Below, in pieces: positions 5,420 through 18,654 of a DNA stretch of 64,000 bases. Origin of the DNA: Aeoliella mucimassa (GTDB lineage Bacteria > Planctomycetota > Planctomycetia > Pirellulales > Lacipirellulaceae). The translations under genes and the position numbers were made by a program. The notes beneath the pieces are model-generated. The model worked only from the letters and a program-made list of their open reading frames with translations. It did no database searches and was not told where the DNA came from. Every line of letters starts with the position of its first letter. Position 1 is the stretch's first letter. The stretch spans positions 4,774,001 through 4,838,000 of the forward strand of contig NZ_CP036278.1 in the NCBI RefSeq assembly GCF_007748035.1, in the 5' to 3' direction.

Positions 5420-6931
5420 TGTGTAAGCGTCTCGAAAGTAGGCATGAAATCGGTTCTAATATATTGTGCCGGGTGACTCTTCCTATTTTGCCACACGCCA
5501 GGAGATGATCATGGCCTATTCGCCGCGTGAGCCAATCGAGCTAAACGAAGAGGAGCAGCGGACTTACGAGCTTCTAAAGGAGGCTTGCGACGATGACATT
5601 CGTCGCATGGCCAAGTTGTTGCACGACAAGGACGACTCGAATCTGTTTGGGCAAACGGAGTTCGACCTCCGCGACCGAGTGCATGCACTCGGAGCCAAGG
5701 CCTTGGAAACAGTCGCCAACGAGCGACAAAAAAAGGGACGGGTACGAGAAAGCTAGCTGCGTCTGCCCGACCTGCAATGGCGACGCCCGCTGCGTGAACG
5801 TTCGCTCGCGGTGGGTCGATAGCCTGCTCGGCCCACTGCAAGTGAGGCGTCACTACTACCACTGCCGCCGGTGCCGTCACGGATTGTTTCCGCGGGACAA
5901 AACGTTGGGACTCGGCAAGCGAAAGTTTAGTCCGGCCGCGGCCCAAGTGGTGAGCATCACCGGCGTGCAAACGAGCTTCGCTCAGTCGAGCGAAGTGACA
6001 CTTCGTAAACTGTGTGGACTGAAGGTCAGCGAGTCGACCGTCGAGCGAGTCACCGAAGACGCTGGCGAGCGTCTCCAAACGTTACTCGCCGCAGGCGAGA
6101 CGTTTGGCAACACAGAGCCGTTCGCCTGGCAACGCGACGCGCATGGCAAGACGTGCGCGTACGTGAGTCTCGACGCCACAGGCGTGCGACAGCAAGGCCC
6201 TCGTGGCGCGCAGGCCGAGGGCCGCATGGCGTACGTCGGCATGATTTACAACATAAACAGCGAGCAGGATGCTCGCTCGCCCGACCCGCATTCGGTGCGG
6301 TATTTATCGGGGTTTTATGAACTCCCGGAACTTGGGCGGCAACTGCGTCGCCAAGCCGCCGCGGTTGGGTGGGACGAGGCAGAGCAGCAGATCGCGATCT
6401 CGGATGGCGGTGCTGGTTTAGAAGAGTTCTTGCGAGTGCACTTCCCGCGTGCGGAGCGGATCCTCGACTTCTGGCACGCGAGTGAGTACCTGGTGGAATT
6501 AAGCCAGTCGCTCTATCCGGACGACGAGGAGCATCGCACTGCTCAGTTGGCATCGTGGTGTCACCGGCTGAAGCACCAAGGAGGCTTGAGCATCGTGTGG
6601 ATGTTGCAGTCGCTGGAGAAGACCAACTGGTCTTCCGCTCAACGCGAAGCTTATACGACCTGCCTGCGATACTTCCAAAACCACCAGCACAAGATGAACT
6701 ACCCCCGCTACGTGGCCCACGGCTGGCAGATCGGCAGCGGCCCGGTCGAGAGCGCGTGCAAAACCGTCGTGGCGGGGCGCTTGAAGCAAAGCGGCATGCG
6801 CTGGAGCCAGCACGGCTCAAACGCCGTGTGCCACCTCCGCGCCCTCTACCTCAGCCAACGCGGCTGCTGGGAAGACTACTGGCAAAAGTACGCAGCTTAA
6901 GCAAACTGCCCACAATTGTGACGCTTACACA
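5420..6931 (+). mobile_element. ISKra4-family insertion sequence (1,512 bp)
   Basis: The element is bounded by imperfect terminal inverted repeats of 24 bases. The left repeat (5420-5443) and the complement of the right repeat (6908-6931) both begin TGTGTAAGCGTC and match at 19 of 24 positions. It is flanked by a 7-base target duplication and holds one transposase gene in two reading frames. The insertion is between the oxidoreductase upstream region and the BatA-type gene and does not visibly break a reading frame. The intact ends and identical duplications suggest recent insertion. Confidence 0.9.
5511..6900 (+). CDS. ISKra4-family transposase, two frames joined at an A7 run
   Basis: DDE-type transposase. 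The first frame starts at the ATG at 5511 (MAYSPREP), with AGGAG six bases upstream, and stops at 5756. The second frame carries the main protein to 6900. It shows a zinc-ribbon-like CPTC ... YHCRRC region, then likely catalytic residues in SLDATGVR, ISDGGAGLEE and GPVESACKTV. The two frames overlap at seven A residues (5728-5734) followed by GGG. Moving from frame one to frame two needs a +1 (or -2) shift, or one A less, so transcriptional slippage, recoding or a recent indel are all possible. The family call rests on the overall pattern and length. Confidence 0.8.
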
Positions 6932-7021: not shown

Positions 7022-9169
7022 TTACAAGTAGACGCGGCGATTGTAGATATACCACTCGACCAACAGCAGAATGATGGCCAGCAGCAGCAATGGCCGCCAG
7101 ATTTCCTTCCGGGCGGGTTGCTGGGTTCCTTTCACCTCAACATGTCCGATTTGCAGCGAAGCGACCGATTCGATATTGTCGGTCGCGTCGTCGTCGCCCA
7201 TCACGGCGAGCTTGACGTTGCTTTCCTGACCGTCGAACAAGTTCACCGCGAAGCGACTCTCCACTTTGCCAGCGTCGAGTATCTCGTAGTAGCCAGGCTG
7301 TTCGGTGTCGTGGAACAAATAGCTTCCGTCGGCGTTGCGTTCGACCACCGTCTCGCGATTGTCGGGGCCTTTCACGGTGAGCTTCTCAGCCAACGACTTG
7401 GTTCGCAGCGCTAGCGCCTGGCCTGGCAAGTTTGTGCGATCTGATCCTTCCTGCCCTTGATTCACGAAGTAACCAAAGGCATTCAGCAAGAAGGTGGGGA
7501 AACTATATCGGCGATACCAATCGGCATTGATGTATTCGCTGCCATCTTTGTTCACGGTCAACTCGAAACCGATTACCGCATCTTCGAAGCCTTCCCGTGG
7601 GGCAATCGATACCAGAGGTCCCTGAGTCGATTCCACCAGCACCTGCCCCCCTTTGGGCGGCGGAACGATATTACTGCCATTGATGCGGAAGTCGCCTAGC
7701 TCGACGTAGGCCATGAGCGGATGCTCGCGACTCTGGTCGATGATCGCCGGCAAGGCAACTCGTTCGACAGTGGGTGTTGGTTGTTCAGCGGGAGCTTCGG
7801 GAGCAGGTTCCGTAGACTCGGCGGCCGCATCCGTCTCGGCGGGCGGGGATTCTTCCTCGGCCGCTGGTGCCTTGGTCGAAGCGTACCAAGTTGGGGGAAC
7901 GCTGCCGAAGAACAGTGTGTTCGACCTTGGCATCCGCTCTTCGGGAGCGCACTGATCGTAAATAATCAGGTCGTACGCACCGCTGGCTGCCAGTTCCTGG
8001 TGCTCTTTGGTTTTTAGCGTATCCGGCGTCGCAATTTCCACGTCGGCATAGCGTTTGATTCTCTCGGTCGAGAGAGCGGTCATCAACACTTTGTTGCCGG
8101 GGGTCACGAGCAGCACTCGCCCGGCCGAAGTGTCGTTAACCGCTGCGTAGGCTTTGTTGTCGATCGCCAGGGCGTCGCTCATGGCCTTGAGAGCGGTGCT
8201 CGAGAGTTTGGCTTCGAGCTTGCCCGACTCAACTCCAGCCAGGGCGAATGTGACGCCGCGTGCTTCGCCACTGGGAACGGTTACCTCCTGGGCGTCGAGA
8301 AAAGTGCCATTGTGCGAGAGTTCGACGACCGACGTCTGTTCGTCGGTCGAGAAGTTACTCACCTGAATAAACGCTTGCCGTTCATCGGGCCGACTCTCGC
8401 TCCTGCGGGTGCTGAAGGCGGTGATCGCCAGGTTGTTCGCTTCGCGGGTGCCTAGTGGCACAAAGAACTGCGGCTGAAGATTGCCGAGCGAGAAGCCTTT
8501 AACTTCGGAGAAACGCCCGTCGCTAAAGATGTAGAGCGTCGTTTTCTCTCCGTCGCTGATGTCGATCGCAACGTTCGACTCGGGCTCGATCACTTGCCCC
8601 GGATTGGCCAACCCATCGGCCAACTGCAACGCGCCCAGCAGATTGGTAGGGCGTGAGGTCAGTTCGATTTTCTCGACCGCTTCGCGGAGCTTGCGACGAT
8701 TCGAGGTAAAGCCTTGCATCACCCGGGCTTCATTATTGAAGCTGATGACCATCGCGGCCATGTCGGACTGCATTTGTTCGATCAGGGCGATTGTTTGCTT
8801 CTTCGCTTCGGCGAGTCGACTTTCAGCGTCCTTCACGTCGGCGGAACCCATGCTGGCCGAATTGTCGATCGCGAAAATCATCCGCTGGCCTTGCAGCTCT
8901 TGCCCTTCCCAGCCGGGCCGAAGTAGCGCTAAGATCGCGAGCGCCAGCAGCAGCAACTGCAAGAACAACAGCAAACTTCGACGGAGCTTCTGCCATAAGC
9001 TGTTGACGTGCAGGTCTTCAATCGACTTCTTCCACAAGTAGGTGCTCGGCACCTCGACTGGATCGCGTTTGAGCTTCAGGAAGTAGAGCGCAAGCACAGC
9101 CAAAGGCAGTAGTGCCATCAGGCCCCACAGCCAAAGTGGTTCGAGTGCGTTTCGAAACAGGGAAGTCAT
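7022..9169 (-). CDS. BatA-type VWA-domain membrane protein
   Basis: A 715-residue protein with the BatA N-terminal region: two membrane segments (about 13-31 and 66-84) around the motif LKLKRDPVEVPSTYLWKKS. A von Willebrand factor A domain follows with the metal-site motif DNSAS at 102-106. A long extracytoplasmic region contains a Pro/Ala/Glu-rich linker (about residues 420-455), and a last membrane helix lies near the C terminus (LLLLAIILLLVEWYIYN). It ends the leftward MoxR/VWA block, 10 bases after the DUF58 gene. Such blocks are thought to assemble or activate membrane or periplasmic complexes; the target here is unknown. Confidence 0.9.
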   Translation of the reverse strand: MTSLFRNALEPLWLWGLMALLPLAVLALYFLKLKRDPVEVPSTYLWKKSIEDLHVNSLWQKLRRSLLLFLQLLLLALAILALLRPGWEGQELQGQRMIFAIDNSASMGSADVKDAESRLAEAKKQTIALIEQMQSDMAAMVISFNNEARVMQGFTSNRRKLREAVEKIELTSRPTNLLGALQLADGLANPGQVIEPESNVAIDISDGEKTTLYIFSDGRFSEVKGFSLGNLQPQFFVPLGTREANNLAITAFSTRRSESRPDERQAFIQVSNFSTDEQTSVVELSHNGTFLDAQEVTVPSGEARGVTFALAGVESGKLEAKLSSTALKAMSDALAIDNKAYAAVNDTSAGRVLLVTPGNKVLMTALSTERIKRYADVEIATPDTLKTKEHQELAASGAYDLIIYDQCAPEERMPRSNTLFFGSVPPTWYASTKAPAAEEESPPAETDAAAESTEPAPEAPAEQPTPTVERVALPAIIDQSREHPLMAYVELGDFRINGSNIVPPPKGGQVLVESTQGPLVSIAPREGFEDAVIGFELTVNKDGSEYINADWYRRYSFPTFLLNAFGYFVNQGQEGSDRTNLPGQALALRTKSLAEKLTVKGPDNRETVVERNADGSYLFHDTEQPGYYEILDAGKVESRFAVNLFDGQESNVKLAVMGDDDATDNIESVASLQIGHVEVKGTQQPARKEIWRPLLLLAIILLLVEWYIYNRRVYL

Positions 9170-9179
9170 GGTATCTTGG

Positions 9180-10073
9180 CTATCGCACCAAGCCTCGTTT
9201 GCGCAGGTAGTTGCTCATTAAATCTTTTACCGGCAACCGATTGTGTGCAAGCAGGTAGTTCATTCCTCGACGGCTGCAGTAATCCTGGGCGCCGCGGGTA
9301 AAGGCGTCGAGCGTCTTCTTGTAGCGTGCGAGGAGCGGAGCGCTGACCGTGATTTCGGCCTCGTCCTGATCTTCGCAGTCGACCAGCTTCAGATCGCCTT
9401 TCACATCGGGATCGATCTCCTCCTGGCTCAGCACGTGCATTACATACACATCCATCTGACGCGCTACTAGGTAGCGAAGGGCCGATTCGTAGCCTTGCTT
9501 GTCCATCAGGTCGGTGATCAACACGATAATGCCTTTGCCTGGATTGCGAAGGCAAAACCGCTTGACTCCATCAGCCAGCGAGATGTTTTGATCGGGCTCG
9601 ATTTCAGCCAGGGTGTCGAGCATCCGCCAGACGCTCCGACGACCACGAAGCACCGGGCCTCGTTTCTGGGCGCTTTGCCCAAGCGATTCGATGACGACTC
9701 GATCGCTACGAATCAGTCCAATGAACCCCAACGCAGCAGCCAGTTGCTTGGCGTACTGCAGTTTCGAGGGGTCGCCAAACCCCATCGAGGGACTTGCGTC
9801 GATCAGGGTAAAGAAGTGCAGGTCTTCTTCCTCCAGAAACAACTTGACGATCAACTTATCGAGCCGGGCGTAGAGGTTCCAGTCGAGCATCCGCAGGTCG
9901 TCGCCAGCGACGTAGTTGCGAAAGTCGGCAAACTCGACGCTCTGCCCTTTGCGTTTGCTGCGACGCTCGCCTTTCATACGGCCACGAAAGATCTTGCGAG
10001 AGACAAGCTCCATGCGCTCGAGTTGGTTCATCAACTCGGGTTCAAGCAGTGATTGCAGTTCGCCGGTACTCAT
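9180..10073 (-). CDS. DUF58 / VWA-like protein of the MoxR block
   Basis: A 297-residue cytoplasmic protein. The DUF58 signature is seen around residues 35-75 (RRSKRKGQSVEFADFRNYVAGDD, LDWNLYARLDKL). A VWA-like metal-site motif DASPS at 92-96 follows. DUF58 proteins are regularly encoded beside MoxR ATPases and BatA-type proteins and probably act as their adaptor; the biochemical role is not established. The gene is tightly placed between the small NPYVAP protein (74 bases) and the BatA-type gene (10 bases), which suggests co-transcription. Confidence 0.9.
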   Translation of the reverse strand: MSTGELQSLLEPELMNQLERMELVSRKIFRGRMKGERRSKRKGQSVEFADFRNYVAGDDLRMLDWNLYARLDKLIVKLFLEEEDLHFFTLIDASPSMGFGDPSKLQYAKQLAAALGFIGLIRSDRVVIESLGQSAQKRGPVLRGRRSVWRMLDTLAEIEPDQNISLADGVKRFCLRNPGKGIIVLITDLMDKQGYESALRYLVARQMDVYVMHVLSQEEIDPDVKGDLKLVDCEDQDEAEITVSAPLLARYKKTLDAFTRGAQDYCSRRGMNYLLAHNRLPVKDLMSNYLRKRGLVR

Positions 10074-10147
10074 AGGTGGTGATCTTCTCTTTGAACTCGA
10101 ATCCGTGCCGACGACGTTACCCCGGCAACCAGGCAGCTAGTAAACAG

Positions 10148-10312
10148 TTATCCGACGATGGCGACAATCAACACCAACACGACGATCAGCCCACCGATCC
10201 ACAGCGAAAGTCCCACTGGGCTGGTAAGCTCCTGTCCCTCTGGCGGCACCGCCAGATGTTCTTCCGCTAATGGGGCAACATAAGGGTTTAACTCGGGTTG
10301 TTCTGATTCCAT
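10148..10312 (-). CDS. Small NPYVAP-motif membrane protein
   Basis: A 54-residue protein (MESEQPELNPYVAPLAEE...) with one C-terminal membrane helix (GLSLWIGGLIVVLVLIVAIVG). The start was set at the ATG at 10312; the frame continues upstream to 10333 and would overlap the preceding gene end by ten bases. It shares the pattern [NS]PYx[AS]P in front of a hydrophobic segment with two other products of this block. No family is recognised. Its place between the TM2 gene and the DUF58 gene suggests a role with the MoxR/VWA proteins, but this is only context. Confidence 0.6.
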   Translation of the reverse strand: MESEQPELNPYVAPLAEEHLAVPPEGQELTSPVGLSLWIGGLIVVLVLIVAIVG

Positions 10313-10706
10313 CGACACGTGCGCTAAAACCACCCCTTCTTGCCAATCATGTACTCTTCTTCGAAGTCTTGGTCTGACTTGGTGAGATAAATAATACCCT
10401 CAACAGCGCCGATCCCCCACACAATGATGGCGGCCCATCCGCAGGTACAAATGGTAATCAACAGCATGATGATCCCAGGGGTCGTCGCCCCGTAAACAAA
10501 CTTATGCACGCCTAGCCAGCCAAGAAAGATGCCGCATAAGCCGGCGACGATCTTTGTACCATTACTATCGCCTTTGAATTGATGAGTACTTGTCGTTTGA
10601 GGCGAAGCGTACGGAGACGTCGGCGGTGCTGGTGGAGGAAGCTCGACCTCAAGGCCCCCCAGATCCACCGCCTCGACCCAGTCGGCCATGCCGTCGCGCC
10701 ATACTA

Positions 10707-11866
10707 GTACGTCTTTCCTGAAATCCATTCCGCTGCTATATGCTGCGGAATGAAAAAGCACATTGTTTGCCTGGACCACCAGGCCCGTGGAGGTTTGGAG
10801 CAGCTAGCACGCTCAGGCGCCCGCGCGGCGCAAGTGGTGCGTCGCTGCCAGATATTATTGAAATCGGACTCGGGATGCACCGACGAAGAGATCGCCGAGC
10901 ATGTGGGCTGCACGACGCGCAACGTCCGAGCCGTCCGAAAGCGGTTCTGCGAAGAGGGCGTCCAGCGGGCGGTGTACGATGCGCCTCGCTCGGGCCGCCC
11001 CCCAGAGTTCACCAAGCGGCAGCAGCAACAGGTAATCGCCCTGGCGTGCAGCGAGCCGCCCGAGGGACGGGCTCGCTGGACGCTGGAATTGTTGTGCGAG
11101 CACGCGGTGAAGGAAGGCTTCGTCGATTCGCTCAGCGTGACGGAGGTCTCGCTGTGGCTCAAGGAACACGACCTGAAGCCGTGGCGAAAAAAACTTGGTG
11201 CGTGCCCAAGCTGAACGACGAGTTCTGTGAGCGGATGGAGGACGTCCTCGAGCAGTACGAGAAGCCGCTCGACCCGAACGAGCCGGTCGTCTGCCTCGAC
11301 GAGCAGCCCTATCAGAGGGTCGACGACGCGCGGCCGCCCGAGCCCGCGGCACCCGGCAAGATCGCGAAGCAGGACTACGAGTACCGCCGCTGCGGAACCT
11401 GCAGCGTGTTCGTGGCGGTCGAGCCGAAGGCGGGCAAGCGATTCGTTCAGGCCAAGCGTCACCGCAAGCGAGCCGACTTCGCCCGGTTCGTCCGCGACCT
11501 CTTGAAGCGCTATCCCGACGCAGAGCGGGTTCATCTGGTGATGGACAACCTCAACACGCACAACGAGAAGTCGTTGATCGAAACCTTTGGCGAGGAGGCG
11601 GCTCGGCCAATGCTGGAGCGGATTGTGTGGCATTTTACCCCCAAGCATGCCAGTTGGCTCAACATGGCCGAGATCGAAATCTCGGCCATACAGCGACAAT
11701 GCCTGGGACGTCGGTTGGCTTCGCTCGACAAGGTTCAAAGCGAACTCTCCCACTGTTCACGCGACCGCAATCGGAAGAAAATCAAAATCAATTGGACCTT
11801 CCATCGAAAAGACGCCAAACGCGTCTTCCCTGAACTCTATAGGAAATGACTTCCGGGACGACGTAC
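10707..11866 (+). mobile_element. IS630-family insertion sequence (1,160 bp)
   Basis: Both ends begin GTACGTC when read inward; over the first 25 bases the inverted repeats match at about 19 positions. It is flanked by TA on both sides (10705-10706 and 11867-11868), the target duplication expected for IS630/Tc1 elements. It lies within the GYF_2-TM2 gene, on the opposite strand. The coding region is a single transposase in two frames. Confidence 0.9.
10750..11849 (+). CDS. IS630-family transposase made by -1 frameshift
   Basis: Frame one (10750-11214) encodes the N-terminal helix-turn-helix DNA-binding region (TDEEIAEHVGCTTRNVRAVRKR). Frame two, one base back, runs to 11849 with the DDE catalytic domain: LDEQPYQ, VMDNLNTH and SWLNMAEIEIS. 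The frames meet at seven A residues (11187-11193) followed by C, a classic slippery site; the -1 shift gives a product of about 366 residues. The combined protein has the normal length for IS630 transposases, so programmed frameshifting is more likely than decay. Confidence 0.9.
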
Positions 11867-11993
11867 TAGGTCGTTTGGTTGCAGCCGGCCTTCGTGGGCC
11901 AGTTGCTTGAGCTTCTCGTCGTCGTAGGGTCCAAAGCGTTTCGAATCGCCGGGCCGGCTTACGTACCATTTGTTCGACATGATTCCTTGCGAC

Positions 11994-12221
11994 TCAGTTC
12001 GCGGGTTGCGTTTCTACAGGTGAAAGTTGTTCTGTTGTTTCCGTTGGTTGGATTCGCCGGGGGTGACCGCCAATAGTAGCCGCAGGTTGTAAAAGCGAGA
12101 TAAGCATCAGGAGAACAATCAGTACAACGGCAACCTCTATCAAGTTAAGGTGCCACCATTTCTTCGTTGGTCTCTGCGGACTATTGGTGTTCTTGCTCTG
12201 AGGTGACTGGTAAGGGTTCAT
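11994..12221 (-). CDS. Small NPYQSP-motif membrane protein
   Basis: A 75-residue protein starting MNPYQSPQSKNT, with one membrane helix (LIEVAVVLIVLLMLISLL, about residues 29-46) and a polar C-terminal tail rich in Thr, Glu and Pro. A TTG at 12248 would add nine residues; the ATG at 12221 is preferred because NPYxxP at the extreme N terminus is common in planctomycete proteins. It lies 57 bases after the MoxR gene and 13 bases before the split GYF_2-TM2 gene, all leftward. Function unknown. Confidence 0.6.
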   Translation of the reverse strand: MNPYQSPQSKNTNSPQRPTKKWWHLNLIEVAVVLIVLLMLISLLQPAATIGGHPRRIQPTETTEQLSPVETQPAN

Positions 12222-12278
12222 TTCGAGCTTGTTCTTGAGTACTTCCAACTTGGGGCATTTCCTGCCCCCTGCGTTGCT

Positions 12279-13295
<1,017 letters not shown>

Positions 13296-13367
13296 TGGGA
13301 AACAGTCGGGGGTCAGGGGTCGTGGATCAGGGAAGTCGTTGGAAGCGACGCCCAAAGGAATACGGCA

Positions 13368-16300
13368 TTACTTGTCGCGATCTTTCCACACGTCTTTCTT
13401 GGCTTTGAGCAATCGCGACGTGTAGGACTCTTGTTCTTTCTTCTCTTCGCCGACCTTGGGTGTCGGTTTCGGCGAGGTCCGCTGCGTTGGCTTTTCTTCC
13501 AATCCAGCGAGCGGCGCCGGCTCGTTGCTGTCGGGAGCTTCTTCGGGGGCTTCGAATCGCGTTGCCGAGCGGCGAGATTCGTATTGCTCCTGCACCTCGC
13601 GTTTGCGACTCTGCAAACGACTCATCGTTGCAGGAGCCTCGGCTTCGCGTTCGCGGCCGAGCAGATTCTCGCCGATGTAGGCCCACACGGGAGCGAGCCA
13701 TTCGAAACCAATCTGCACACGGCGAATGAACACATCGAAGAAGAACAGCGTCGCAGCGATTAACACCATCCATGGCCAGATGCTATCGCGCGAGATGGCC
13801 GGCGGCATATCCCGGCGGTAAGGGTCGGTGTTCAATAGCGCCGGCAAGATCTTGGGGTCGCCGGTGAGCATGGCGTTCTGGGCCGCCCCGATCAACTCGC
13901 CCGGCTTGCCGGCCGTCGGTTCGAGGTTCGCGATGGTTCTGAGCAGCGAGAGATTAGTCTCGCGGTCCTTGAACTCCTGGCTGTAACTGACGTTCACGCC
14001 GGTGCGAATCATCGCCTGATCGCCCCCCGGCAGGATCGAGATCATGTAACTACCAGGACTAATCGAGTCGAATTCGCCGATGTAGCGTCCTGGAGCCACT
14101 TGTTCGATCACCAGCGGCACCGGTTGCATGTCGGGACCGACCACCGTGGCTCCCATGGTGGTGACGTTGATGAACTCTTCGTTCTTGTCGAGCGCGTCGA
14201 TCACCACTCGCGTACGACCATCGGACACGCTGGTGGCAACGCTGAAATTACCGGTGTCGCCGGTCGGGCGCATCGACCAGCGAATCATCTGGCTATAGAA
14301 CTGATCGTACTGCTCCCACGAGTCCCACTGTTTGCTCAACTGATGGCCCGCATCGGTGGTAAAAGCCACCGTTTTGCCCAAACCATAGGGCCAGGCGGCA
14401 AGTAACGTGTTGTTGGCATCGATGGCCGGCGTCGGGGAACGCAAGATCACCTCAACCAGGGCGCTGTCCTTCACTGTAGTCAGCACGTAACCATCGAGCG
14501 GTGGAAAACTACTGGGGCTGATGCCGCGGACGATTTCATGCTCCGATACCATCCGCGGAGCTTGCGGTGGCTCCAGATCCTTCACCAGCGGGCGGGCGAC
14601 GCGGCGGGCTTCGCGCTGATAGATGCGCGGCAGCGCGTTCGCGTTGCGAACCATGTAGTACTTGCCGCCGGTTACCTCGGCGATCTGTCGCATGGTGTCG
14701 GTACCCACGGTACCATGCGCACCGACCGCGACCGTGGTAATCTTTACGTTGAGCTGTTTGAACTGCTTAAGCGTCGCCGCACTGGGTGCGGTCGGATCGC
14801 CATCGGAAATGATGATCATGTGCTTCGTGGCAGGCTTATTGGTCTGCCTATCCAACAACACAAAGCTGTTGGCCACCATCTTCATCGCCCCTTCGAAAGC
14901 CGGCATATCGCCGACGTTCATCTGGTCGACGCTACCAAGCATCATATTGCGATTCGGTCCAACCGTGAGCATGCCCCCTTTGGTGCGTCCCCACATCCAC
15001 TGATCGGACATGTTCCACTGAATCATGCCGCAGTAGTCGCGGTCGCCCAGCACTTTGATCGCTTCGATGGCAATGCGTTTCTGCCAGTAGTTGCCCTGGG
15101 GCATTTCGCTGGCGTGCATCATCATGGCCAGCGCGCCGACCGGCACCACCTTGGTACTCTTGATCTGAAAATCAACCGGCATCGCTTTCTCTAGCTCGGT
15201 GTTGGCCCATCCGCCAGCGCCGAAACTATTGCGCCCCCCCAGCATCACCAGCCCGCAACCAAGCTCCTCGGTGTTGCGAACCAGCATGGCGATTTGCTCG
15301 TCGGTGAAGTTGGCACCACCATCTTCGTCGATGTCGTCGCCGCTGGTGCTGCTTCGCGGAACGTTGGCCAGCACCACGGTGTCGTATCGCTGCAGGTCGG
15401 CAAGCGAGCTGAACAGCTGATTACTTGGCATCAGCGTCACTTCCAGGCCGCTGGTCCGCAGGCGATCGACCATGTAGTCGAACTGCCCGGTGGCCGCCCA
15501 GTCTTCAATCACCAGCACGTGACCTTTACCGCGCACGTGAGTGAATGCCGTCGCTTCGTTGTTCTGGGCGGTGGTATCGCTGCTCGGATCGGCCGGCGAG
15601 AACTCCGCCTCGTAGGTGTAGAAGTCAGGACGGTCGATGGTTTCGGTGGCCGAGAATCGACTCTTGCCCGGATCCAGCTCCACAGGCATCTCGGCGATGA
15701 TGGTCTCCTGCTCGCCCGACTTGCGTTTAATCCGTAGCGTACCAGGCAACGGAGGCGATCCCTCCGCAGCATCGTGGTTCAGCACCACTCGCAGCTCGAA
15801 GGGTTGCCCTTGTCGAACATCGTTCGGCAGGTCGACTTTCTCGACCGAAGCCTCGCTCCGCTGCGGCAGGTCGACCGGAACCACATCGATACTAATGCCC
15901 GCGTCGGCCAACGCGCGGGCCTCGCTAAGCGCGTCGCCCAGGTTTTCGTTGCCGTCGGTCACTACGACGATGCGTTTGGCGGTCTCTTCGGGGAACAGCG
16001 CCTGAGCACGCTCGAGGGCACTTTCCATATTGGTGTACTGGGGATCGAGCAGGCTATTGAAGGTTCGCAGCCCAACAAAATACTCGAGCGGTGGGATTTC
16101 GACTTCGGCATCGCGGCCGAACACGATCACCGCGACCCGGTCTCGGTCTTCCTGGCGGAACTTGTCGACCGACTCGTTGACAAACTCCTTCATCAACTGT
16201 CGATGATCCTCGGGGATGCTCATCGACTGGTCGAGCAAATAGACGACCGTCATTTTGTCGGTCTTCTTCTGGTACTGGATGTCGGCCAAGGCAAACACCA

Positions 16301-16448
16301 GCAGCAAAAACACCAGCGAACGCAGTGTGATGGCCGATATACAGCGCCAGAATCCCAATCCTGAAATACTGCGATAGCTGACTACCCAGATGACAGGCAG
16401 CAGCAACAACAGCAGCAGATACCAGGGGCTATCGAAGGCGAAAGGCAT
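13368..16448 (-). CDS. Large VWA/GATase-like membrane protein of the MoxR block
   Basis: A 1,026-residue protein. Two N-terminal membrane helices (about 9-25 and 40-57) are followed by a VWA domain with DQSMS at 73-77 and VVVTDGNENLGD. The middle holds a glutamine-amidotransferase-like fold (GHVLVIEDW, VVLANVPRSS, GLVMLGGRNSFGAGGW) and a second VWA-like strand set (MIIISDGDPTAPS). A further membrane helix (IWPWMVLIAATLFFFDVFI) is near residue 900, and a charged cytoplasmic tail ends the protein. No amidotransferase catalytic Cys was identified, so this fold is probably not enzymatic. It is the first gene of the leftward block and lies 72 bases before the MoxR gene. Confidence 0.9.
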   Translation of the reverse strand: MPFAFDSPWYLLLLLLLPVIWVVSYRSISGLGFWRCISAITLRSLVFLLLVFALADIQYQKKTDKMTVVYLLDQSMSIPEDHRQLMKEFVNESVDKFRQEDRDRVAVIVFGRDAEVEIPPLEYFVGLRTFNSLLDPQYTNMESALERAQALFPEETAKRIVVVTDGNENLGDALSEARALADAGISIDVVPVDLPQRSEASVEKVDLPNDVRQGQPFELRVVLNHDAAEGSPPLPGTLRIKRKSGEQETIIAEMPVELDPGKSRFSATETIDRPDFYTYEAEFSPADPSSDTTAQNNEATAFTHVRGKGHVLVIEDWAATGQFDYMVDRLRTSGLEVTLMPSNQLFSSLADLQRYDTVVLANVPRSSTSGDDIDEDGGANFTDEQIAMLVRNTEELGCGLVMLGGRNSFGAGGWANTELEKAMPVDFQIKSTKVVPVGALAMMMHASEMPQGNYWQKRIAIEAIKVLGDRDYCGMIQWNMSDQWMWGRTKGGMLTVGPNRNMMLGSVDQMNVGDMPAFEGAMKMVANSFVLLDRQTNKPATKHMIIISDGDPTAPSAATLKQFKQLNVKITTVAVGAHGTVGTDTMRQIAEVTGGKYYMVRNANALPRIYQREARRVARPLVKDLEPPQAPRMVSEHEIVRGISPSSFPPLDGYVLTTVKDSALVEVILRSPTPAIDANNTLLAAWPYGLGKTVAFTTDAGHQLSKQWDSWEQYDQFYSQMIRWSMRPTGDTGNFSVATSVSDGRTRVVIDALDKNEEFINVTTMGATVVGPDMQPVPLVIEQVAPGRYIGEFDSISPGSYMISILPGGDQAMIRTGVNVSYSQEFKDRETNLSLLRTIANLEPTAGKPGELIGAAQNAMLTGDPKILPALLNTDPYRRDMPPAISRDSIWPWMVLIAATLFFFDVFIRRVQIGFEWLAPVWAYIGENLLGREREAEAPATMSRLQSRKREVQEQYESRRSATRFEAPEEAPDSNEPAPLAGLEEKPTQRTSPKPTPKVGEEKKEQESYTSRLLKAKKDVWKDRDK

Positions 16449-16517: not shown

Positions 16518-17486
16518 TTAGATCCTAAACTGTTGGACTCGGTGATTATAGCTATCTAGCACGTAGGTTTTCTTTTTTGAATCTTGGACGATGGCCCAGG
16601 GATTGTGCAACTGCCCCGGTTCGCGGCCCACGTCGCCCCACATGGCGACTGGTTCCCCCTTGCGGGTCAGTTTCTGCACCCGGCTGTTGCCGTATTCGCA
16701 AACCAACACCTGATCTTGGTGGTCAATCCACATACTATAAGGATACGAAAGCTGTCCCGGCTCGATTCCCTCTTCGCCCCAAGTGAAAAGAAACGCCCCC
16801 TCGGTGTCGAAGACCTGCAAGCGATGATTTCCAGCATCGCAGACCCAAACCTGATCCTTCTCGTCCACCCACAAACATTGCGGACGCAGGAATTGTCCCG
16901 GCTCAGTGCCGTGCGTGCCCCATTGTAGGAGAAAAGTTCCATCGGGGGCGAATTTTTGCACGCGATCGTGTTTGCCATACTCCGACACGTATAGATTGCC
17001 AGCCGAGTCGCGGGCGATGTCCGTGGTCCAGCCCAAATCGCCAGGGCCATCCCCTTCCTGGCCGAAGGTCCGCTCGTCGTTCAATTGTCCATCGAGCGAG
17101 TAAACCAGCACCCGAAAGTAGTGGGTATCTGCTACATACAGCCAGCCATCGATGATCGACATGCCGGTGGGGCGGCCATTTTTACTCTCCGGTGTTCGCC
17201 AGCCGCGCAAGTATTTGCCGTCGGTATCGAACACCTGGATACGAGCGGTGATATCGACTAGGTATAATAGGTCGTCCTGGTCGATGCACATGGCCCGCGG
17301 TTTTTGCAACTTTCCGTCGGTGATGCCACGTTCGCCCCACACCTTATCCGGCTTCTTGCCACTCGTGCCGCCGGTGCACCCGACCAATGGCAACGCGGCT
17401 CCCGCAGCCAACATGTTCAGCAGAAAGGCTCGCCGGTCTTGCGAACTTGCGAGGGAAGAGCGGTAATGGAAAGGCAATTTGTTCAC
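16518..17486 (-). CDS. NHL-repeat Tat lipoprotein
   Basis: A 322-residue protein. An N-terminal twin-arginine-type signal (QDRRAFLLNML) leads to a lipobox (LVGC, Cys about 37), so it is probably exported and lipid-anchored. The rest is a six-bladed NHL/YVTN beta-propeller: repeats such as DGKLQKPRAMCIDQDDLLYLVD, DAGNHRLQVFDTEGAFLFTWG and EYGNSRVQKL recur at about 46-residue spacing. Such propellers bind proteins, sugars or small ligands; no catalytic residues are evident. It is monocistronic and leftward. Confidence 0.85.
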   Translation of the reverse strand: MNKLPFHYRSSLASSQDRRAFLLNMLAAGAALPLVGCTGGTSGKKPDKVWGERGITDGKLQKPRAMCIDQDDLLYLVDITARIQVFDTDGKYLRGWRTPESKNGRPTGMSIIDGWLYVADTHYFRVLVYSLDGQLNDERTFGQEGDGPGDLGWTTDIARDSAGNLYVSEYGKHDRVQKFAPDGTFLLQWGTHGTEPGQFLRPQCLWVDEKDQVWVCDAGNHRLQVFDTEGAFLFTWGEEGIEPGQLSYPYSMWIDHQDQVLVCEYGNSRVQKLTRKGEPVAMWGDVGREPGQLHNPWAIVQDSKKKTYVLDSYNHRVQQFRI

Positions 17487-17619: not shown

Positions 17620-18654
17620 GGCCTTGTTGACTAACTCCACTCGAACTGTGGAAGCCCGAGTTGGGTGAATTGATTGATGATTTTACAGCGCAAGCGGGCT
17701 TCCGTTTGTTGGTTTTCGAATACTCGGTTTTTGAGATGGCTCCCAAAGCTTTGTTTCACTCGGTACATGGTCGTTTCCGCCAAGCTTCTACGATGATAGC
17801 CCACTTCCTCTTTCCAACTCCTACGCCCCTTGCGTCGAATCTGACGAATTGCCTCGTCCCGGGGCAAAGGCTCCTCCGCAGAGTTGCCATGTTGTTTGAT
17901 CTTGGCGTTGTGCTGCGGCGGAATCACCGGCTCAATGCCTTCGGATTCCAGCCCTTCATAAACCTTCCACTTGTCGTAACTACCGTCGCCGTGAAACTTT
18001 TTTACGGGCTGCTCCACCTGCTCCAGCATTTCGGGAACCGCATCGGCATCGTGGCAACTGTTCTCGGTCAAAATCTCCGCCACAATCTCGCGGGTGTCAG
18101 GATTCACCGACAAATGCAGCTTCCGCCATGTCCGCCGCTTCGACTTGCCATGCGTCCGCATCTTCCATTCGCCCTCGCCAAACACTTTCATGCCGGTGCT
18201 ATCCACCACGATATCGATGTCGCCCCTCTTGTTAGCGATATCGAGCGAAACATTCAGCTTGCTGGCTCGCTTGGCGAGCGAAGAATAATTGGGAATCGCT
18301 GCCTCGACGCCCAACATCGCCACCAGCGAGCGGCCGAATCCCTCAGTCTGCCGATAGGGAAGTTTCAGCAGTTCGCGAATCGTCAGCAAGCACTCGATCG
18401 CCGTATCGCTGAAGACAAAAGGGCGACCGACTTTTGTCTGGTCGTTAGGATGTTCCCAGTTCTCCAACGCCTCGTCGCTAAACCAAATAGTGATGTTTCC
18501 ACGCTCGATGAGCGACTTGTTATACTCCTTCCAGTTCGTGACTTTGTAGGTTCGTTTTTCTTTCGTAGCCATGTTCGATCTCCGTAAAAAAGGTACGTGG
18601 TTCCATTCCACGTTAGTTTTTACGGAGGTTTGTGACTAATTGTTCAACAAGGCC
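17620..18654 (-). mobile_element. IS5-family (IS903-like) insertion sequence (1,035 bp)
   Basis: Both ends read inward start GGCCTTGTTGA, close to the known IS903 terminal repeat GGCTTTGTTGA. A 9-base target duplication is visible with one mismatch: AATTGGGAC before the left end and AATTGGGAT after the right end. One transposase gene fills the element. The right end lies 41 bases before the TsaC-phosphatase fusion gene, so the original promoter of that gene has probably been moved away. Confidence 0.9.
17631..18572 (-). CDS. IS5-family transposase
   Basis: A 313-residue DDE transposase. The catalytic residues are visible in VVDSTGMKVFG, HGDGSYDKWKVYE and the Y-(2)-R-(3)-E-(6)-K signature (YHRRSLAETTMYRVK). 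It mediates cut-and-paste transposition of the surrounding element. The frame is open up to 18611, but the ATG at 18572 (MATKEKRTYKVTNW) is the better start, since the upstream part would run toward the inverted repeat. No frameshift or stop is seen, so it should be active. Confidence 0.9.
   Translation of the reverse strand: MATKEKRTYKVTNWKEYNKSLIERGNITIWFSDEALENWEHPNDQTKVGRPFVFSDTAIECLLTIRELLKLPYRQTEGFGRSLVAMLGVEAAIPNYSSLAKRASKLNVSLDIANKRGDIDIVVDSTGMKVFGEGEWKMRTHGKSKRRTWRKLHLSVNPDTREIVAEILTENSCHDADAVPEMLEQVEQPVKKFHGDGSYDKWKVYEGLESEGIEPVIPPQHNAKIKQHGNSAEEPLPRDEAIRQIRRKGRRSWKEEVGYHRRSLAETTMYRVKQSFGSHLKNRVFENQQTEARLRCKIINQFTQLGLPQFEWS

Follow-up and report, generated by a model that had tools for sequence, protein, structure and literature searches.

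Gene content of the locus

The genome of Aeoliella mucimassa (G000) is a single contig of 6,608,792 bases, and the window analyzed here, by which we mean the whole stretch of 64,000 nucleotides, is G000:C1:4774001-4838000. Positions below are those of the window unless a genome and contig are named. The window contains a series of minus-strand genes in the order NHL beta-propeller, VWA, MoxR, small gene A (smA), a GYF_2-TM2 gene, small gene B (smB), DUF58, and BatA, and the GYF_2-TM2 gene is cut in two by one copy of an IS630-family element:

16518 to 17486, minus strand: NHL-repeat beta-propeller protein, directly upstream of the VWA gene
13368 to 16448, minus strand: large VWA protein of 1026 aa, with VWA-type and GATase1_like matches only
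12279 to 13355, minus strand: MoxR-type AAA ATPase (AAA_3, 208 bits)
11994 to 12248, minus strand: smA, with NPYQSP near the N-terminus (ATG at 12221) and then one hydrophobic segment
11870 to 11980, minus strand: 5' part of the split GYF_2-TM2 gene, with its ATG at 11980 and AAGGA 3 nt upstream of the ATG
10704 to 11869, plus strand: IS630-family element, 1166 bp when the flanking CTAGs (10704-10707 and 11866-11869) are counted
10324 to 10707, minus strand: 3' part of the split GYF_2-TM2 gene, with the GYF_2 end, a proline-rich linker carrying SPYASP, and the TM2 domain; stop at 10324
10148 to 10333, minus strand: smB, with NPYVAP and then one hydrophobic segment (ATG at 10312)
9180 to 10073, minus strand: DUF58 protein, by profile match
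7022 to 9169, minus strand: BatA-type VWA membrane protein, by profile match

From VWA to BatA the genes overlap or are separated by gaps of 10-74 bp, the element aside, with smA lying 13 bp ahead of the GYF_2-TM2 start and the smB ATG 11 bp past the stop of the split gene. Of 29 relatives' loci examined (flanks of 1.5 kb), 25 also have an NHL gene upstream of VWA. The block is flanked by transposase genes of the ISKra4 family (5593-6900) and the IS5 family (17631-18611), so that three IS families (ISKra4, IS630, and IS5) occur within about 13 kb around it.

One gene in two parts

The sequence-only reading proposed that an IS630 element had split a single GYF_2-TM2 gene and that joining the halves at one TA restores a protein of 164 residues, and our profile searches bear out both statements, including the coordinates. 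The N-terminal half supplies 37 residues of its own and reads 10 more into the CTAG and the element before a stop (47 aa); this frame matches positions 1-37 of the GYF_2 profile with 34.5 bits (match at 11852-11968, of which 18 bases lie inside the element's CTAG end). The frame of the C-terminal half stays open into the element up to a GTG at 10779 (151 aa), and alone this half matches GYF_2 positions 28-47 with 19.6 bits, short of the cut-off of 25.8, and the whole of TM2 with 35.6 bits. Joined at one CTAG, the halves give 495 bases, or 164 aa and a stop, and this protein scores above the cut-offs for both GYF_2 (PF14237; 53.8 bits over profile positions 1-47) and TM2 (PF05154; 35.5 bits against 27.9). 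The scores of the two pieces add up on joining, and as the GYF_2 match of the joined protein runs from 1 to 47, nothing was lost at the seam, where the CTAG codes for part of residues 38-39.

An element that is repeated 37 times in a genome can mislead assemblers, and the junction could in principle be an assembly error, or the halves could come from two different proteins. We regard this as extremely improbable, as the genome is a single contig and the two parts are complementary pieces of one domain that lie in one frame, meet exactly at a CTAG, and are matched together by one unbroken homologue. That homologue, a continuous Thermoguttaceae protein (L111), aligned with residues 5-164 across the seam at 48-53% identity.

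Structure of the element

If the TA at 10705-10706 and 11867-11868 is taken as the target duplication, the element measures 1160 bp. Its terminal inverted repeats are short and imperfect, with 13 of the first 17 bases in agreement, and start with GTACGTC. It has the DDE transposase of IS630 type, with the NCBIfam profile NF033545 covered in two frames:

10750 to 11214, plus strand: transposase ORF1, the helix-turn-helix part (HTH_32, HTH_29; NF033545 positions 1-116)
11187 to 11193, plus strand: run of seven A (A7) where the ORF1 and ORF2 frames meet, kept in 37/37 copies
11190 to 11849, plus strand: transposase ORF2 frame with the DDE_3 catalytic part, in frame -1 with respect to ORF1 (NF033545 positions 120-295)

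ORF1 alone reaches 88 bits, below the whole-protein cut-off of 100, as expected of a part, and ORF2 reaches 144 bits with NF033545 and 105 bits with DDE_3. The A7 run is likely the frameshift or slippage site of the transposase. We also considered a frameshift-stimulating hairpin at this place and rejected it, the plus-strand stem being no better than shuffled sequences (z +1.47). Matches to the element were found in 13 of the 97 genomes searched (our own included, with up to four candidates scored per genome), and among the candidates scored the only full-length one outside A. mucimassa was in genome G061. This relative is 72% identical, has the same length and CTAG ends, and carries A8 in place of A7, suggesting that the two-frame transposase layout is old and compatible with transposition.

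Copies and target sites

The genome contains 37 copies of the element, split 20 to 17 between the two strands. Over the 1166 bp, 36 of these are identical, and the remaining copy has one mismatch, at the place corresponding to 10819. CTAG is present at both ends of 37/37 copies, with the TA inside it consistent with a TA target duplication, although a duplication of all four CTAG bases would give the same picture; the empty site was deduced from the joined frame. The base preceding CTAG at the left end of the element was A in 22 copies, C in 10, G in 5, and T in none. Single-base composition predicts 233 CTAGs in the window and 80 are present; the element thus targets a rare word. Two of the copies lie head to tail with one shared CTAG (G000:C1:3311780-3314109), which suggests that the element's own CTAG ends can act as new targets. 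We found no insertion bias for or against genes: 24 of the 37 empty sites lay in frames (start-to-stop, at least 150 aa), as compared with 47 of the 73 other CTAG sites in the window. Of 500 random window positions, 86% lay in such frames. Two of the 37 sites belong to the tandem pair and have the element itself as their neighbor on one side.

Taken together, the 37 near-identical copies have the appearance of a recent burst with the known target preference of IS630. The break had also been proposed to be recent, and this holds in that 36/37 copies are identical and both gene halves are free of stops; the event looks recent. This dating rests on copy identity, as the nearest genomes compared share 73-78% identity in the VWA protein.

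Homologues and fold of the GYF_2-TM2 protein

Continuous proteins that align over both parts of the split gene were found in a Thermoguttaceae MAG, in Verrucomicrobia MAGs, and in others. In a search of 296 genomes of the order (our own included, with up to 12 candidates scored per genome), seven places in six other genomes gave profile-wide matches to GYF_2-TM2 (E 1e-25). With the window protein as a tblastn query, five of these seven places aligned from residues 1-5 to 164, while G093 aligned over 3-156 at 31% identity and G089 only over 63-164. No block genes were detected near any of the seven places (E 1e-3; about 8 kb on each side, shorter for two of them), nor were the other six block proteins found near any of 80 GYF_2-TM2 loci, out of 538 relatives found (E 1e-5; flanks reaching 10 kb unless the contig ended sooner). 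In A. mucimassa itself, the only TM2 match is that of the split gene, and there is one other GYF_2 match. TM2 modules also occur in relatives with N-terminal parts that differ or are short.

For the fold we used a model of L111, and the following results apply to this homologue rather than to the window protein. Residues 1-50 were modeled with pLDDT values of 93-96, and the seam maps before the strand at 35-38. The best PDB matches of the model were named GYF domains and TOC-TIC chains, with Foldseek GYF matches all weaker than E 0.001 and VIA-align Z below 8.

The locus in relatives

To place the gene in its genomic context, we took the best VWA match in each of 37 relatives and compared what lies downstream of it; the 40 stretches so covered include three from paralogous loci, of which one is in the A. 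mucimassa genome. MoxR and DUF58 lay within 4 kb of each other in 22 of the 37 relatives, and in 0/22 of these was a GYF_2-TM2 gene found between them (tblastn, E 1e-3). Of the remaining 15 relatives, nine had MoxR without DUF58 in the stretch, two of these stretches ending at MoxR with the contig and a third being shortened; the other six lacked MoxR, one of them being a 605-base contig end and some possibly being paralogous VWA loci.

The gap between the two genes holds different genes in different relatives. In the same-genus genome G003, smA and smB adjoin without a GYF_2-TM2 gene between them (both small genes were assigned by eye), and in G002 only smB is present. In G014 the gap contains frames of 85 and 143 aa that resemble a PIN toxin-antitoxin pair by eye; G009 and G019 have other frames in it, and G024 and G026 have long inserts. 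In G018 and G005 we noted a small protein with two hydrophobic stretches after MoxR that appears TM2-like by eye; the one tested, that of G018, gave no hit to the Pfam TM2 profile at thresholds up to E 0.1. The two sides of the gap can also be far apart. In the same-genus genome G001, smA follows MoxR (assigned by eye) and smB-DUF58 is inverted about 19 kb beyond VWA, BatA being outside the stretch covered, while G005, G018, and G030 have about 260-331 kb between MoxR and DUF58, and in G007 and G043 the two genes are on different contigs. With respect to the small genes themselves, smB gave tblastn matches in G002 and G001 and its counterpart in G003 was assigned by eye; smA gave no tblastn match in relatives at 1e-3, and its counterparts in G001 and G003 were assigned by eye from place and motif.

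The block therefore consists of two separable units, and the earlier view of the GYF_2-TM2 gene as a member of an otherwise complete MoxR/VWA block did not survive this comparison, the gene being absent there in 22/22 relatives that have MoxR and DUF58 no more than 4 kb apart. Such an absence is what the sequence-only reading itself had named as a refutation. Conservation at the locus is thus refuted; the split itself stands because continuous GYF_2-TM2 homologues exist elsewhere. By its distribution, the gene looks like an accessory rather than a conserved part of the block.

Effect of the insertion

The explanation that we consider highly probable is that a recent IS630 burst broke an accessory, late-arrived GYF_2-TM2 gene, with an optional adaptor-like protein lost and the core of the block spared. 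The element would have inserted by TA-targeted transposition at a CTAG in the course of the burst that left 37 copies. Since the cut would fall directly ahead of strand three of the GYF fold, a GYF domain should form from neither piece. In the intact protein, a soluble, peptide-binding GYF_2 domain would form a head held by a two-helix TM2 anchor. The insertion would remove this head, while translation starting within the element may still yield the TM2 part. The gene probably arrived late between a VWA-MoxR-smA unit and a smB-DUF58-BatA unit, and its loss would then most likely cost an optional adaptor-like protein and not the core of the block. We infer the recent date, a gain rather than repeated loss, the loss of function, and a modest downstream effect.

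It had been suggested that the element may block expression of the genes downstream of it. In its strong form, this would mean that the element cuts the block transcript and silences smB, DUF58, and BatA, with the downstream half of the MoxR/VWA block lost. The tight packing of the minus-strand genes from VWA to BatA and the 1.16 kb length and opposite orientation of the element are consistent with such polarity, as is a minus-strand terminator-like stem followed by T7 at 11212-11192, within the element and on the strand of the block. However, the number of terminator-like sites in 9900-12400 does not clearly exceed that in shuffled sequences (5 against 2.8 +/- 1.8 expected), and the stem at 11212-11192 folds no better than its shuffles (z -0.94), for which reason we rejected it as an antisense terminator. 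In addition, the DUF58 and BatA frames are intact here, and the separation of smB-DUF58 or of DUF58 from MoxR in G001, G005, G018, and G030 makes it plausible that the downstream unit has its own promoter and can stand alone. We therefore judge strong polarity to be unlikely; some polarity on smB-DUF58-BatA is possible, but it is weakened as a reading by the separability of the two units.

The truncated C-terminal frame might instead be expressed, from the GTG at 10779 (151 aa) or from an ATG at 10728, with the TM2 function kept and the gene changed rather than lost. This frame runs without a stop out of the element into the gene and has a whole TM2 domain, and the other or short N-terminal parts of TM2 modules in relatives would be compatible with such a product. 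No promoter-like site was found in 9900-12400, however (0 against 0.7 expected), and we consider this outcome improbable. The break cannot be taken as proven damage to a core system.

A short tag on small membrane proteins

The smA (NPYQSP) and smB (NPYVAP) proteins each carry one tag of NPYxSP type near the N-terminus. Their counterparts keep variants of it (NPYESP and NAFASP in G001, NPFESP and NAYSSP in G003), and the smB of G002 is without a tag. We searched the genomes at DNA level with a pattern encoding NPYxSP, in which serine was restricted to TCN, and with a reversed control. The tag was in excess of the control in A. mucimassa (15 matches against 1) and in G001 (16 against 2), G005 (35 against 1), G018 (31 against 2), G048 (41 against 0), G054 (12 against 2), and G057 (12 against 0). 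In many other relatives it was at or below the control, as in the same-genus G003 (4 against 6) and in G026 (0 against 4), and most genomes in a sample of the phylum had 0-3 matches.

We examined 64 matches in five genomes that were chosen for their high tag counts: 15/15 in A. mucimassa, 16/16 in G001, 12/12 in G054, 7/12 in G057, and 14/41 in G048. We assigned 56 of these to an N-terminal class (possible start no more than 30 codons away), five to a C-terminal class (no more than 25 residues from the stop), and three to neither; two of the five C-terminal-class frames have no in-frame start. The 30-codon measure is weak, as 59/64 tag matches satisfy it compared with 82% of random codons of the same frames, whereas an ATG within eight codons before the tag occurs in 43/64 compared with 18.5% of random codons. 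A strongly hydrophobic stretch was present in 55 of the 64 tag-bearing frames, and the 56 N-terminal-class proteins, with the tag removed, fell into 51 groups (BLASTP at 1e-3). In our literature search, which left subscription papers and preprints mostly uncovered, we found no paper with NPYQSP, NPYESP, NPYASP, NPYxSP, or NPYQAP.

The tag lies close to the terminus, is shared by unrelated proteins, and varies in a patchy way from genome to genome, which suggests a dedicated reader or sorting device. We tentatively propose that the [E/D]NPY[Q/E/A]SP tag on dozens of unrelated Pirellulales membrane proteins is recognized by such a device in the cytoplasm, with the balance leaning slightly against this idea at present. 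A bolder step would be to see the reader in the split GYF_2-TM2 protein, which has a putative proline-motif-binding fold and an SPYASP of its own, but this found no support. We also considered an NPYxSP-like motif as a class trait of GYF_2 proteins and rejected it, as [NSDT]P[YF]x[SAPV]P occurs in 0/33 of those examined; the SPYASP in the linker is thus not a family trait. The tag is a more interesting lead than the split, and it could open a testable question on membrane-protein sorting in these cells.

Comparison with known systems

A MoxR-vWA-beta-propeller ternary conflict system has been described (PMC7159879), and we considered whether the block belongs to it. The propeller-vWA fusion that defines the system is missing here, the propeller being a separate NHL gene, and we rejected this assignment. 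The separate NHL gene and a MoxR protein above the bpMoxR cut-off (47.1 against 27) do look like an unfused form of the MoxR-vWA-propeller association.

The same paper also mentions, next to GAP1-N2 systems of planctomycetes, proteins in which a pair of GYF domains is fused to either a TM-rich region or a trypsin. Our literature search, again with subscription papers and preprints mostly uncovered, found no paper combining the TM2 domain, the GYF domain, and bacteria, and nothing nearer to the subject than PMC2170065, PMC5009743, and PMC7159879. Among known structures, the GYF domain of GltJ from Myxococcus xanthus (PDB 7z3c) was the top Foldseek match of the L111 model (E 0.022, probability 1.00), and the gliding_GltJ profile NF033761 matched L111 weakly, with 20 bits against a cut-off of 450. 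Compared with other GYF_2/TM2 proteins, the joined protein passes both cut-offs; elsewhere such proteins are continuous, whereas here the protein is broken.

The element itself is close to well-known systems. The preference of IS630 for the TA in CTAG is the title subject of Tenzen and Ohtsubo 1991, as cited in PMC2170065, and the latter paper reports a TA target duplication for ISY100. Members of the IS630 family use frameshifting or transcriptional slippage, according to PMC5009743. The element offers nothing new in kind, and its near-identical copies at CTAG sites, one of which hit a single accessory gene, make this a clear textbook case of an ordinary kind of mutation. With IS630 of Shigella sonnei and with ISY100 it shares the DDE transposase and the TA target duplication, and there is no difference of principle; what distinguishes it here is a two-frame transposase with A7, present in 37 copies in one planctomycete genome.
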